This document shows, piece after piece, positions 22,581 to 26,369 of a stretch of DNA of 64,000 nt. The notes beneath the pieces were generated by a model. That model searched no databases. It saw only the letters and a program-made list of their open reading frames with translations, and was not told where the DNA came from. The position numbers and the translations under genes are program-made. Source of the stretch: Nocardioides luteus (GTDB lineage Bacteria; Actinomycetota; Actinomycetes; Propionibacteriales; Nocardioidaceae). Within the stretch, counting starts at the first letter, position 1; each line of letters opens with the position of its first letter. The stretch is from the NCBI RefSeq assembly GCF_015752315.1, contig NZ_JADOVJ010000001.1, positions 3,340,501 through 3,404,500 of the forward strand, in the 5' to 3' direction.

Positions 22581-24845
22581 GTGAGCAACGAGCGTCGCGC
22601 AGACCTGCCCGAACCCACCCTCCGCGTCAGCGAGCCGGAGACGGCCGCGGTGGGGATCCCCGGGGTGGCGCACTCGATGGAGTACGCGCTGCGTGAGATG
22701 GGACCCGTGCGCAGCCTGCAGACGCTGCTCAAGGTCAACCAGGTCGGCGGCTTCGACTGCCCCTCCTGCGCGTGGCCGGACCCCGACCACCGCAAGGCGG
22801 CCGAGTTCTGCGAGAACGGCGCCAAGGCGGTGGCGTGGGAGGCGACCCGCAAGCGGGTCGACCGTGCCTTCTTCGCGGCCAACTCGGTCGCCTCCCTCGA
22901 CGAGCGCGACGACCACTGGCTGGAGGCGCAGGGCCGGCTGACCGAGCCGATGTACATCGGCCCCGACGACACCCACTACTCCCCGATCTCGTGGTCGGAC
23001 GCGATCTCGCTGATCGCGGACCGCATGCGCGCCACCGCCCCTGACCGTTCCGTCTTCTACACCTCGGGCCGGGCGTCCAACGAGGCCGCGTTCGCCTACC
23101 AGCTGCTCGCCCGCCAGCTCGGCACCAACAACCTGCCCGACTGCTCCAACATGTGCCACGAGTCCAGCGGCACCGCTCTCGGCGAGGTCATCGGCATCGG
23201 CAAGGGCACCGTCACCTACGACGACCTGGCCGAACACTCCGACCTCATCTTCGTCGTCGGCCAGAACCCCGGCACCAACCACCCGCGGATGCTGACCGCG
23301 CTCGAGTCCGCCAAGGAGCACGGCGCCAAGGTGGTGTCGGTCAACCCGCTCCGCGAGGCCGGTCTGGGGCGGTTCCGCAACCCCCAGACCGTACGCGGCG
23401 TCAGCGGTGTCGGCACCAAGCTGGCCGACATGCACGTACCTGTGCAGGTCAACGGCGACCTCGCGCTGTTCGCCGGGATCAACAAGGTCCTCGTCGAGCG
23501 CGACGCCGTCGACCACGCGTTCCTGGAGGCGCACACCGACGGCTTCGAGGTCGCGGCGCAGGCCTGGGCCGCGATGGAGTGGGACGAGATCACCCGGCTC
23601 AGCGGCATCTCGCGCGAGGTGATCGAGTCGCTCGCCGACCTCGTCGAGACCCGGGACCGCATCATCGTGTGCTGGGCGATGGGCCTGACCCAGCACAAGA
23701 ACTCGGTCGCCACGATCCGCGAGATCGCCTCGTTCCTGCTGCTGCGCGGCAACATCGGCAAGCCCGGTGCGGGTGCGTGCCCGGTCCGTGGCCACTCCAA
23801 CGTGCAGGGCGACCGCACGATGGGCATCTGGGAGAAGCCGCCGGCCTGGTTCCTCGACGCGGTCCGTGACGAGTTCGGCATCACGCCGCCGCGCGAGGAG
23901 GGCTACGACGTGGTCGCCGCGATCGAGGCGATGCGCGACGGCGCCGTCGACGTCTTCCTCGCTCTCGGCGGCAACTTCGCCGCCGCGACGCCCGACACCG
24001 CGGTCACCACCGCGGCGCTCGCCGACGTCGGTCTCACCGTCCAGATCTCGACCAAGCTCAACCGCAGCCACCTCCACCACGGCCGCGAGGGCCTGATCCT
24101 GCCGTGCCTGGGCCGCACCGAGCGCGACGAGACCGGCGGCCGGGAGCAGTACGTCACCGTCGAGGACTCGATGGGCATGGTCCACGCCTCCCACGGCCGC
24201 CTGCTCCCGGGCTCGAAGGAGCTGCGCAGCGAGGTCGGCATCATCTGCGCGATCGGCGAGGCGCTCTTCGGCTCGGACCAGGGCATCGACTGGGCCACGA
24301 TGGGCGTCGACTACTCCCGGATCCGTTGGCACATCTCGGCCGTCATCCCCGGGTTCGAGGACTTCGAGGCCCGCCTGAAGGCGCCCGGCGGCTTCGCCCT
24401 GCCCAACGGCCCCCGCGACTCCCGCACCTTCAACACCGCGACCGGGCGCGCCCGGGTCACCGCCAACCCGCTGACCGCGGTCACCGCTCCCCCCGGACAC
24501 CTGCTGCTCCAGACGCTGCGCTCCCACGACCAGTTCAACACCACGGTCTACGGCTACGACGACCGCTACCGCGGCATCAAGGGCGGGCGCCGCGTCGTCT
24601 TCGTCAACCCCGAGGACCTCCTCGAGCTCGGCGTCGCCGACGGCGACACCGTCGACATCGTCTCGGTCTGGACCGACGGCGAGCGTCGCGCCGCGGGCTT
24701 CCGTGTCGTCGCCTACTCGACCCCGCGCGGCTCCGCCGCGGCGTACTTCCCGGAGACGAACGTCCTCATCCCGCTCGACTCCTACGCCGACGGCAGCCGC
24801 ACCCCGACCTCGAAGTCGGTCGTCGTGCGCCTGGAGGCGCGCTAG
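22581..24845 (+). CDS. FdhF/YdeP-family molybdopterin oxidoreductase
   Basis: A 754-aa protein of the molybdopterin oxidoreductase superfamily, YdeP-like branch. The N-terminal GGFDCPSCAWPDP with FCENGAKA is characteristic of this branch. NMCHESSGTALGE, GQNPGTNHPRM, GAGACPVRGHSNVQGDRTM and the C-terminal molydopterin-dinucleotide-binding domain (FNTTVYGYDDRYRG) follow. E. coli YdeP is linked to acid resistance, but the reaction is not known. It is called formate dehydrogenase in some annotations, without support. GTG start with TAGCCT 6 nt upstream (probably leaderless). No electron-transfer subunit or cofactor gene is adjacent. Confidence 0.87.
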   Translation: MSNERRADLPEPTLRVSEPETAAVGIPGVAHSMEYALREMGPVRSLQTLLKVNQVGGFDCPSCAWPDPDHRKAAEFCENGAKAVAWEATRKRVDRAFFAANSVASLDERDDHWLEAQGRLTEPMYIGPDDTHYSPISWSDAISLIADRMRATAPDRSVFYTSGRASNEAAFAYQLLARQLGTNNLPDCSNMCHESSGTALGEVIGIGKGTVTYDDLAEHSDLIFVVGQNPGTNHPRMLTALESAKEHGAKVVSVNPLREAGLGRFRNPQTVRGVSGVGTKLADMHVPVQVNGDLALFAGINKVLVERDAVDHAFLEAHTDGFEVAAQAWAAMEWDEITRLSGISREVIESLADLVETRDRIIVCWAMGLTQHKNSVATIREIASFLLLRGNIGKPGAGACPVRGHSNVQGDRTMGIWEKPPAWFLDAVRDEFGITPPREEGYDVVAAIEAMRDGAVDVFLALGGNFAAATPDTAVTTAALADVGLTVQISTKLNRSHLHHGREGLILPCLGRTERDETGGREQYVTVEDSMGMVHASHGRLLPGSKELRSEVGIICAIGEALFGSDQGIDWATMGVDYSRIRWHISAVIPGFEDFEARLKAPGGFALPNGPRDSRTFNTATGRARVTANPLTAVTAPPGHLLLQTLRSHDQFNTTVYGYDDRYRGIKGGRRVVFVNPEDLLELGVADGDTVDIVSVWTDGERRAAGFRVVAYSTPRGSAAAYFPETNVLIPLDSYADGSRTPTSKSVVVRLEAR

Positions 24846-24857
24846 CCGGGAATTACA

Positions 24858-24886
24858 TTGCGGGTGTCTGTGTTGGCACCTAACGT
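24858..24886 (+). promoter_or_regulatory. Probable housekeeping promoter of the EF-Tu leader
   Basis: TTGCGG (24858-24863), 17 nt, TAACGT (24881-24886). Initiation 7-8 nt after the -10 box would place +1 at or next to the ATG at 24894, making the leader ORF leaderless. Confidence 0.55.
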
Positions 24887-24887
24887 G

Positions 24888-24992
24888 ATGCGCATGTTCC
24901 GCGTGGTTTCCGAGTTCGACCTGTCAGGCAAGAGCCTGACGGGCGCTCCCACGTGGGCTCCGTCAGTCGATTGCACCGGCGCTCGAAGCTGA
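24888..24992 (+). CDS. Candidate leader peptide (uORF) of the EF-Tu gene
   Basis: Short reading frame of 34 codons from ATG 24888, or 32 codons from ATG 24894. It reads MRMFRVVSEFDLSGKSLTGA then PTWAPSVDCTGARS and stop (24990-24992). The second ATG fits a leaderless start behind TAACGT. The frame spans three of the segments that can pair alternatively in the RNA, and its stop codon lies in the fourth. This is the architecture of leader-peptide control of transcription or translation. No known family is recognised. Confidence 0.55.
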   Translation: MRMFRVVSEFDLSGKSLTGAPTWAPSVDCTGARS

Positions 24993-25126
24993 CCCTCCTC
25001 CTGCCTCGCAGGACCCGCGGAGGAGGGTGGCCCGCACCGGCCCCCTCATCGCGGTGACAGCGCTGTGAGGGCTTGCCGGAGGGTCCTGGCTCACCCCGAA
25101 ATCTTCTGACGGACAAAGGAACTCTC
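24923..25126 (+). promoter_or_regulatory. Leader RNA with mutually exclusive hairpins (putative attenuator) upstream of EF-Tu
   Basis: Segments alternate GTCAG (24923-24927), CTGAC (24936-24940), GTCAG (24962-24966) and CTGAC (24989-24993). Pair 1:2 extends to GTCAGGC-aaga-GCCTGAC. Pair 2:3 extends to CTGACGG/CCGTCAG (24936-24942 with 24960-24966). Pair 3:4 is 5 bp. A strong stem ACCCTCCTCC/GGAGGAGGGT (24992-25001 with 25019-25028) follows the uORF stop. Its loop sequence CAGGACCC (25009-25016) can pair with GGGTCCTG (25081-25088). CTGACGG recurs at 25106-25112, just before the ribosome binding site AAAGGA (25115-25120), so segment 3 could also pair there. No T-tract is present. All pairings were read by eye. 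Confidence 0.6.
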
Positions 25127-26314
25127 ATGGCCAAGAGCCAGTTCGTGCGGACCAAGCCGCACCTCAACATCGGGACGATGGGTCACGTCGACCACGGCAA
25201 GACGACGCTGACCGCCGCGATCACCAAGGTGCTCGCGGAGCGCGACCCGAGCGTGAACCGCTTCATCGCCTTCGACGGCATCGACCGTGCGCCGGAGGAG
25301 CTGCAGCGCGGGATCACGATCAACATCTCGCACGTCGAGTACGAGACCGCGACCCGGCACTACGCGCACGTCGACATGCCCGGGCACGCCGACTACGTGA
25401 AGAACATGATCACCGGCGCCGCCCAGGTGGACGCCGCCATCCTCGTCGTCTCCGCTCAGGACGGCGCCATGCCGCAGACGCGGGAGCACGTGCTGCTCGC
25501 GCGCCGGGTGGGGGTGCCCTACCTGGTGGTGGCGCTCAACAAGGCCGACACCGTCGACGACCCGGAGCTGCTCGACCTGGTCGAGCTGGAGGTCCGTGAC
25601 CTCCTCTCCGAGTACGGGTTCCCCGGTGACGACGTGCCGGTGGTCCGGGTGTCCGGGCTGAAGGCGCTGGAGGGCGAGCCGGAGTGGACCGCCGCGATCG
25701 GCGACCTGCTGGACGCGATCGACGACTACGTGCCGGTGCCGGAGCGTGAGCTCGGCGAGCCGTTCCTGATGCCGATCGAGAACGTCGTCACCATCACCGG
25801 CCGCGGCACCGTGGTCACCGGTGCCGTCGAGCGCGGCTCGCTGAAGGTCGGCGACGCGGTCGAGGTCGTGGGCCTCGGCTCGACGATCACCAGCACGGCG
25901 ATCGGTCTGGAGACGTTCGGCAAGTCGCTGGAGTCCGCCGAGGCGGGCGACAACGCGGCCGTGCTGCTGCGTGGCGTCAAGCGCGACGAGGTCCGTCGCG
26001 GCCAGGTGGTGGCACTGCCGGGCAGCGTACGGCCGCACCGGAGGTTCCGGGCGAACCTGCACGCGCTGTCCACCTCCGAGGGCGGCCGGCACACGCCGTT
26101 CGCCGCGGACTACCGGCCGCAGTTCTACTTCCGGACCACGGACGTGCCCGGCGGGATCGACCTGGGTGACATCGCCCTGGTGATGCCCGGCGACACGATC
26201 GAGCTCGGGGTGGAGCTGGAGAAGCCGATCGCGATGGACGTCGGACTCGGCTTCGCGGTCCGTGAGGGTGGTCGCACCGTGGCCGCAGGCACCGTGACCG
26301 AGCTGCTCGACTGA
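25127..26314 (+). CDS. tuf: Divergent elongation factor Tu (second EF-Tu)
   Basis: A 395-aa EF-Tu that delivers aminoacyl-tRNA to the ribosome. Domain I has the P-loop GHVDHGKT (residues 19-26), [13 protein letters not shown] (switch I), DMPGH (82-86, where most EF-Tu have DAPGH or DCPGH) and NKAD. Domains II and III are complete and end [17 protein letters not shown]. Many otherwise conserved positions differ from housekeeping actinobacterial EF-Tu, and R128 sits where E. coli has Gln124. It stands alone, away from rpsL-rpsG-fusA, like the extra tuf3 genes of Streptomyces. Control through the structured leader is likely. ATG 25127 follows AAAGGA. Confidence 0.93.
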
Positions 26315-26328
26315 CCCAGCCGACGAGG

Positions 26329-26357
26329 AACGGCCCCCAACCTGTTGGGGGCCGTTT
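26329..26357 (+). terminator. Strong intrinsic terminator after EF-Tu
   Basis: AACGGCCCCCAA (26329-26340), loop CCTG, TTGGGGGCCG followed by TTT. This is a perfect 12-bp stem with a short T run, 14 nt after the EF-Tu stop. It faces the end of the convergent thioesterase gene and may work in both directions. Confidence 0.85.
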
Positions 26358-26369
26358 CTGCTGCTCCGG

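Follow-up and report, generated by a model that had tools for sequence, protein, structure and literature searches.

A conserved upstream reading frame and pseudoknot ahead of EF-Tu3-type genes in actinobacteria: a candidate ribosome-sensing leader

Related leaders and the EF-Tu3 locus of Nocardioides luteus

Already described in the 1990s, EF-Tu3 is a dispensable EF-Tu that resists drugs and whose use has stayed unclear. In Streptomyces coelicolor and S. ramocissimus, tuf3 codes for a stress-expressed second EF-Tu that is drug-resistant and, in S. coelicolor, activated by WblC (excerpts of PMC7157823, PMC12309360 and PMC6804068). The excerpts and abstracts covered here, which take in a minority of the subscription journals, describe no leader, upstream open reading frame (uORF) or pseudoknot for tuf3; nor did we find in them any leader-peptide switch for an EF-Tu gene, in keeping with what a first-pass annotation of this DNA had supposed. 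The nearest architectures to the one reported below are the LEU element and the leaderless cysteine attenuators. The former, in actinobacterial leuA operons, likewise combines a conserved pseudoknot with a candidate leader peptide ahead of its gene; however, excerpts of PMC1262725 describe a run of Leu codons that pairs with the leuA ribosome-binding site, whereas the longest Leu run in the EF-Tu3 leader is of 3 codons and occurs in one of 111 uORFs. It is further unlike the LEU element in that the knot abuts the stop codon of the uORF and in that the gene it precedes is that for EF-Tu3. In the leaderless short-ORF Cys attenuators of mycobacteria (Canestrari 2020, as related in excerpts of PMC9031893), the speed of elongation on an ORF at the very 5′ end controls the downstream gene, a principle likewise proposed here; yet the EF-Tu3 leader has no poly-Cys run, features a conserved pseudoknot, serves a translation-factor gene and has a leaderless start that is predicted. 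A third precedent, the uORF attenuation of wblC/whiB7, is again actinobacterial, responds to translation-targeting antibiotics and belongs to a regulator whose regulon includes tuf3 (excerpts of PMC7157823). The EF-Tu3 leader differs from the wblC/whiB7 leader, there being no terminator-like site between positions 24780 and 25180 of the window. A terminator is carried by the whiB7 leaders.

The window analyzed is a stretch of 64,000 nucleotides from Nocardioides luteus, in which a leader (24894–25126) precedes a gene for an EF-Tu3-type protein that shares 63% identity with the genome's other full-length EF-Tu. The features of the locus are collected in Table 1.

Table 1. Features of the leader and gene in the window (positions are those of the whole stretch)
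Feature	Position	Strand	Details
AT-rich box GGAATT	24849..24854	+	5/6 positions of the WblC/WhiB7 box GAAAWY; 3 nt before the -35
-35 element TTGCGG	24858..24863	+	17-nt spacer to the -10; fits TKGMNN
-10 element TAACGT	24881..24886	+	7 nt ahead of the uORF ATG
uORF	24894..24992	+	32 codons, MFRVVSEFDLSGKSLTGAPTWAPSVDCTGARS; stop UGA 24990-24992
SL1, large hairpin in the uORF	24898..24957	+	limits approximate; contains the 1:2 stem 24920-24929 / 24934-24943
P1, possible long-range pairing	24960..25112	+	24960-24972 with 25100-25112, just 5′ of the tuf ribosome-binding site; weak
Rare Arg codon CGA	24984..24986	+	second codon before the stop; same place in 103/111 leaders
P2 stem	24992..25028	+	24992-25001 with 25019-25028; begins at the stop-codon A
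PKa	25009..25016	+	CAGGACCC; P2-loop segment that supplies the 5′ strand of the second knot helix
PKb	25081..25088	+	GGGTCCTG; 3′ strand of the second pseudoknot helix
EF-Tu3-type gene	25127..26314	+	395 aa; Arg124, Ala230, Ala275 (E. coli numbering)

Distribution of the leader and its link to EF-Tu3

Thirteen of the 58 related genomes searched at the outset, the window's own genome counted, encode an EF-Tu at least 84% identical to that of the window, and the same uORF and hairpin stand ahead of the same EF-Tu paralog in the 12 others; a DNA search with the leader matched all 13. It is mainly this conservation of the uORF and hairpin upstream of one and the same paralog that excludes a chance origin. 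R1, a covariance model built from 13 sequences and restricted to the core of the hairpin, gave 14 hits in 394 genomes of the class, all 14 of them just upstream of an EF-Tu gene. With a broader model (R2), scored with stricter filters in the large searches, hits were obtained in 12 of 396 genomes of the phylum, 50 of 61 Streptomyces genomes, all 38 Kribbella genomes and 17 of 80 genomes of the family of G431, which is called Pseudonocardiaceae-like here by resemblance only. An EF-Tu-like gene follows the hit at 11/12 of the phylum loci, 49/50 of the Streptomyces loci examined (51 matches, with that of G815 left out), 30/30 of the Kribbella loci examined (of 38 matches) and 16/17 of the loci from the Pseudonocardiaceae-like family. 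Three model hits without an EF-Tu (L061, L109, L154) were dropped, as was L144, where the leader is cut by the end of the contig. Upon removal of 8 duplicates, 122 loci yield 114 distinct leaders.

Another view of this link comes from a DNA-pattern scan that used only the end of the uORF and the stem and ignored the gene. The pattern matched at least 120 stretches; among the 120 matches listed, 118, including 79 of the first 80, have an EF-Tu gene no more than 400 nt downstream on the same strand, and the other two, both with typical leaders, lie on DNA that ends 191 and 67 nt after the match. The matches listed come mostly from Streptomyces, with others from Nocardioides luteus, Kribbella, Actinophytocola, Amycolatopsis, Plantactinospora, Dactylosporangium, Actinoallomurus, Catenulispora and Fodinicola. 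A full leader is also present at the locus L259 of S. violaceoruber, which we take to be a close relative of S. coelicolor. Conversely, in the 11 of 61 Streptomyces genomes without a model hit, 13 of the 15 EF-Tu loci are of the ordinary type (Gln124, Tyr160, Arg230, Gly275), and a regular expression for the leader found it at none of the 15. Thus, as far as the sequences can tell, the leader is tied to EF-Tu3. No covariance model of Rfam 15 matched the window, its leader or 6 relatives, and phage records gave no match.

Several outliers were seen in these searches. The DNA search gave weak extra matches in G007 and G031 and at a second place in G038. At L062, in a Streptomyces genome, a full leader stands ahead of an EF-Tu-like gene that has diverged strongly and whose P-loop is altered to HPGHGKTT, and the leaders of L105 and L108, whose EF-Tus are only about 48% identical to that of the window, feature a matching but differently spelled pseudoknot (GTGGGCCCC and GGCCCCG types). 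Among the genomes without a model hit, L275 and L288 code for very diverged EF-Tus (51–52%) with Ala275, and weaker EF-Tu-like matches were found in G839 (52%) and G822 (43%). Upstream of L288 there is a promoter of the leader type, judging from which more diverged leaders probably exist.

The proteins encoded downstream of the leader set themselves apart from ordinary EF-Tus at positions associated with drug action. We compared 109 leader-linked EF-Tus (of 114; proteins of 350 aa or less were excluded) with 17 ordinary ones from related genomes, using E. coli-style numbering. Residue 275 is Ala in 109/109 of the former versus Gly in 17/17 of the latter; residue 230 is Ala, Thr or Val in 109/109 versus Arg in 17/17; and residue 262 is Gly in 109/109 versus Arg in 17/17. 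Arg124 is found in 45/109 leader-linked EF-Tus, including 37/37 within the window's group, and residue 160 is His, Gln or Asn in 65/109, including 58/58 of the Streptomyces type; 124 or 160 is altered in 102/109, and the other 7 carry Val120. We take positions 124, 160 and 120 to be kirromycin-resistance sites, 230 to be a pulvomycin site and 275 a GE2270A site; by these sites, the leader-linked proteins are probably EF-Tu3-like, drug-resistant paralogs. A literature search on these resistance sites gave no match. As a separate observation, 4 of the 17 ordinary controls (L014, L025, L026, L027), all from genomes of the family f4, combine Gln160 with Ala257, at positions that are presumably drug-resistance sites. 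The EF-Tu3 of S. coelicolor is described as resistant to GE2270A and kirromycin (excerpts of PMC12309360 and PMC6804068).

The uORF, its promoter and the pseudoknot

The first-pass annotation had proposed that the additional EF-Tu gene is preceded by a regulatory element of the leader-peptide kind, with a uORF of 32–34 codons. The reading frame is indeed there, with a start at ATG 24894 (32 codons) or 24888 and an end in TGA at 24990-24992, and recurs in relatives with the same paralog. Since the start at 24888 (34 codons) lies 1 nt past the -10 box and is absent in the relatives L003, L005 and L006, that at 24894 is the likely one. Of the 114 distinct leaders, 111 yielded a uORF whose end falls at the stem or within it (the exceptions are L074, at a contig edge, L087 and L106). 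In a frame test on these 111, which favours the frame slightly as 3 of 114 are missing, the start was set by the promoter box and first codons without use of the frame, and 8 gave no start; all 103 testable leaders are in frame with a conserved (T/C)GA at the stem with no intervening stop, and this over 25 different lengths in a total range of 26 to 85 codons. In 93/111, the A of the stop UGA is also part of the first P2 base pair; the remaining 18 form a Kribbella-type subgroup with CGA in place of UGA, in which the stop is found 15 nt downstream, within the stem-loop. Hence, on comparative grounds, the uORF is a conserved reading frame with a stop that abuts or lies inside P2.

Rare codons are frequent ahead of this stop. 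The second-last codon is the rare Arg codon CGA in 85/93 of the uORFs with UGA at the stem, and the homologous position is CGA in 18/18 of the others. Among the Streptomyces-type leaders CGA is second-last in 58/58 uORFs, yet it accounts for 18 of the 1746 Arg codons that the linked EF-Tu genes contain; GCA likewise makes up 211/839 of the Ala codons in these uORFs versus 50/2373 in the linked genes. In one Pseudonocardiaceae-like group, GAG replaces CGA in 8/9 leaders, so CGA is not essential everywhere. The Streptomyces-type uORFs are 37% Ala with runs of up to 9 (runs of at least 4 in 17/58), and what is sensed there may be Ala decoding rather than CGA; those of the window's group are 15% Ala with no run of at least 4 in 37, another group has such a run in 1/7 uORFs, and the uORF of the window has no run of codons for any one amino acid. 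The third positions of the conserved codons vary little, which places part of the conservation of the uORF at the level of RNA, and an N-terminal MFRYAF and a C-terminal DGARS are kept within the Streptomyces type. Readthrough or frameshifting that would fuse the uORF to tuf was considered and rejected, as their relative frame is spread over all three possibilities (46, 36 and 29 of 111).

As to the promoter that had been annotated upstream of tuf, a scan for sigma-70 consensus promoters found no site, and it was by comparison with relatives that an AT-rich box, a -35 and a -10 element could be read. By eye, 26 leaders share the order of AT-rich box, 3 nt, -35, 17–18 nt and -10 ahead of the uORF ATG. 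We used as the criterion for a WblC/WhiB7 promoter the box GAAAWY placed 3 nt before the -35, a spacer of 16–19 nt and a -10 of TANNNT; the GAAAWY motif of the WblC regulon and its -35 TKGMNN are taken from excerpts of PMC7157823. The full box occurs in 43/58 Streptomyces-type leaders and in 5/7 and 4/9 of two Pseudonocardiaceae-like groups, with at least 5 of its 6 positions matched in 55/58, 7/7 and 8/9, respectively; all 37 leaders of the window's group match exactly 5, a level that shuffles reach in 18% of cases (6 positions in 1%). In 39/111 leaders an exact TANNNT stands 7 nt upstream of the uORF ATG, and in 4/111 the distance is 6 nt; in the other 68 the -10 is looser (e.g., GATGAT). 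A sigma-R promoter (GGGAAT-N18-GTT) was entertained for the window's group by eye, and was set aside with its spacing varying between 18 and 19; the WblC reading is preferred because the AT box, the 3 nt and the TTG are kept. The S. coelicolor tuf3 gene is activated by WblC, and ChIP-qPCR places both WblC and HrdB at the tuf3 promoter; within the regulon, transcription mostly starts 7–8 bp past the -10 (excerpts of PMC7157823). With the -10 placed 7 nt before the ATG, this would put the transcription start at or next to the A of the uORF ATG, and the uORF is thus probably leaderless. We infer that the promoter is WblC/WhiB7-like, the action of such a regulator here being a prediction from sequence; the window's genome encodes 8 Wbl proteins, 2 with RGRPR and 2 with GRPR beside the GVWGG motif.

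The 10-bp GC stem noted in the first-pass annotation is exact, and so are its four 5-mers, GTCAG at 24923, CTGAC at 24936, GTCAG at 24962 and CTGAC at 24989, which were thought to form alternating segments that pair as 1:2 plus 3:4 or else as 2:3. The window's leader folds better than 200/200 dinucleotide shuffles (z −3.97). In an alignment of 36 leaders of the window's Nocardioides/Kribbella-type group (A6; L012 excluded), the 1:2 hairpin is conserved, with 96% of its cells paired, three pairs changed on both sides and complete pairing in 25/36. The other two pairings fell away: 2:3 has 80% of cells paired and is complete in only 9/36, and 3:4 has 81% and is complete in 14/36, being weakened where the stop UGA became CGA. 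Hence, the mutually exclusive antiterminator and terminator of a trp-like alternation are not conserved. The 1:2 stem is part of a larger hairpin, SL1, predicted from about codon 3 to codon 22, with pair changes in alignments of 55 Streptomyces-type and 33 window-type leaders (L012, L013, L042 and L043 were excluded from one consensus fold and L062, L105 and L108 from another); on visual inspection, most single folds of the remaining leaders have a hairpin in much the same position. The element is thus real, and wider than first described, with the original pairings partly right.

What had been missed is a helix between 25009-25016 and 25081-25088, which has stronger support than any other pairing apart from the stem, and which makes the 10-bp stem (P2) the first stem of a covarying H-type pseudoknot, as seen in the alignments. 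P2 is paired at 9 positions with few exceptions across 112 leaders (L087 and L106, with a misplaced P2, were excluded by hand from this scoring), and its changes are kept as pairs: position 8 is C-G in 66, U-A in 44 and U-G in 2, and position 5 is U-A in 107, C-G in 4 and mismatched in 1. A segment of the P2 loop, ending 2–4 nt before the 3′ arm in 109/112, is complementary to a segment downstream. The Watson-Crick-weighted score of this second helix is at least 6 in 111/112 leaders, at least 7 in 101/112 and at least 8 in 63/112, while the corresponding shares for shuffled downstream DNA are 29%, 8% and 3%. Choosing the best-pairing position for P2 and PKb biases the result towards pairing; the shuffles share this placement for PKb, and P2 stands without a shuffle control. 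The two strands change together between groups (CAGGACCC/GGGTCCTG, GGACCCC/GGGGTCC, GAGAACC/GGTTCTC, GGTGACCCG/CGGGTCACC, CGGGACCG/CGGTCCCG, GAACCCC/GGGGTTC and others). When the loop of one group is combined with the downstream region of another, the mean score drops from 7.0–8.9 to 4.5–6.5, whereas swaps within a group keep it; 0 to 41% of the between-group swaps still reach 7, most of them between the window's group and one Pseudonocardiaceae-like group. Of the first 80 among the at least 120 pattern loci, many of them closely related to the main set, all 80 score 6 or more and 71 score 7 or more, with further variants such as GGGAACCCAC/GTGGGTTCCC in Actinophytocola. In A6, P2 has 100% and the knot 96% of cells paired, the latter being understated by the misaligned PKb of L013, L042 and L043; together they are 98.3% paired, as against 44–61% when the pairing is slid, with 2 pairs changed on both sides (reached by 23/500 shuffles). 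PKb starts 10–14 nt past P2 in 58/59 Streptomyces-type leaders versus 3/37 of the window's group, where the gap is longer. Going by the alignments, P2 and the second helix are conserved with compensatory changes, and, to judge from the loop lengths, both can be present together. The long-range pairing P1, with 69% of cells paired in A6, was rejected as a universal part: it scores at least 8 in 41% of the Nocardioides/Kribbella-type leaders versus 12% of shuffles, where alone it is clear, in 44% versus 28% in the Pseudonocardiaceae-like group and below shuffles in Streptomyces, and many leaders have inner mismatches.

Proposed ribosome sensing, output and competing explanations

We propose, with a probability of roughly 60%, that EF-Tu3 is controlled by an ancient and conserved leader that senses ribosomes, and that this paralog is one that would act when EF-Tu-targeting antibiotics block the housekeeping EF-Tu. 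Transcription from the WblC/WhiB7-type promoter would start at the uORF ATG, and a ribosome finishing the uORF would have to melt P2; indeed, by simple geometry, one whose A site holds CGA, or that terminates at UGA, would cover the start of P2, which makes it improbable that translation of the uORF and the knot are independent. The speed of the ribosome over the rare-codon-rich 3′ end, with its nearly invariant CGA before the stop, would then decide the folding of the knot. As a guess at the sign, falling EF-Tu activity might slow ribosomes at the rare codons, leaving the knot open and raising EF-Tu3 expression; the output could be at the step of transcription elongation, mRNA stability or translation, which again would be a guess. 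More tentatively, and with odds short of even, we suggest that it is a dedicated sensor of EF-Tu activity, in which a leaderless rare-codon uORF is read out by a stop-codon pseudoknot, such that a block of the housekeeping EF-Tu by drugs or stress turns on the resistant one. Were this so, it would to our knowledge be the first attenuator that both senses an elongation factor and controls one. Against the proposal, the tuf3 gene of S. ramocissimus is reportedly transcribed through exponential growth, uncorrelated with kirromycin. A further point against it is that the conditions published for tuf3 are tetracycline, erythromycin (by ChIP) and general stress, rather than EF-Tu drugs, in excerpts of PMC7157823 and PMC12309360. 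In its favour, theory holds that EF-Tu limitation has ultrasensitive effects where codon use and tRNA are out of balance (excerpts of PMC6692046), which fits a rare-codon uORF as a sensor of EF-Tu.

The same parts could be wired with the opposite sign, which we regard as rather unlikely while giving it real weight: the folded knot would be the on state, blocking Rho or nucleases or aiding initiation, and a ribosome terminating at the uORF stop would destroy it. Early stalling under EF-Tu inhibition would then leave P2 free to fold, and the models give no consistent sequestration of the Shine-Dalgarno (SD) sequence, both of which suit this version; the rare codon kept beside the stop, however, would go unexplained by it. 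A compact and conserved pseudoknot might also be the binding site of a protein, be it EF-Tu3, a ribosomal protein or some other factor, that controls tuf with the uORF secondary, just as the leuA LEU element, where codon changes were without effect, is explained in excerpts of PMC1262725. We hold this to be improbable, given a frame kept in 103/103 leaders over 25 lengths and a uORF that ends at or inside P2 in 111/114.

The reading of the first-pass annotation, a classical transcription attenuator in which the alternation of 1:2 and 3:4 with 2:3 sets a terminator at the 10-bp stem, has in its favour the conserved uORF and 1:2 hairpin and the presence of all its segments in the window. We now consider it very unlikely, with the 2:3 and 3:4 pairings incomplete in most leaders of the window's group, as counted above, and the lack of a terminator-like site in the window; moreover, a PKb conserved downstream of the stem would be pointless for a terminator there. 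Least probable of all is that the uORF encodes a small protein with a function of its own that is co-transcribed with tuf3. The MFRYAF and DGARS of the Streptomyces-type group would be in line with this, but the spread in length from 26 to 85 codons, the near-invariance of third codon positions, which is unlike selection on a protein, and the prediction that the uORF itself forms a hairpin in every group examined all speak against it.

If the proposed ribosome-sensing element is real, its retention from Nocardioides to Streptomyces, Catenulispora and Plantactinospora in association with a single gene would mean that EF-Tu3 is used through ribosome-coupled RNA control. The leader makes this use directly testable with reporters, and uORFs that terminate at the base of a pseudoknot deserve to be sought elsewhere.

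With regard to the output, the effect of ribosome position on the tuf ribosome-binding site, which is what an erm-type translational attenuator would act through, was modelled, and SD sequestration looks unlikely: under two ribosome masks, at the start or the stop codon, the group means for access to the tuf ribosome-binding site moved by no more than 0.04 across 111 leaders, in a nested-fold model that cannot include the effect of the knot. The distance of 24 to 211 nt from the knot to the start codon likewise makes direct SD sequestration unlikely. Exceptions in these models are the access to the start codon in one group, which rose from 0.35 to 0.56 with the early mask, that to the SD in another, from 0.24 to 0.44 with the knot forced, and that to the window's own SD, from 0.42 to 0.60 with the early mask.

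On either side of the locus, a gene for an FdhF/YdeP-family oxidoreductase (22581–24845) ends 48 nt before the uORF, and an inverted repeat followed by T residues (26330–26360) lies just 3′ of the EF-Tu3 gene and is, by eye, terminator-like.
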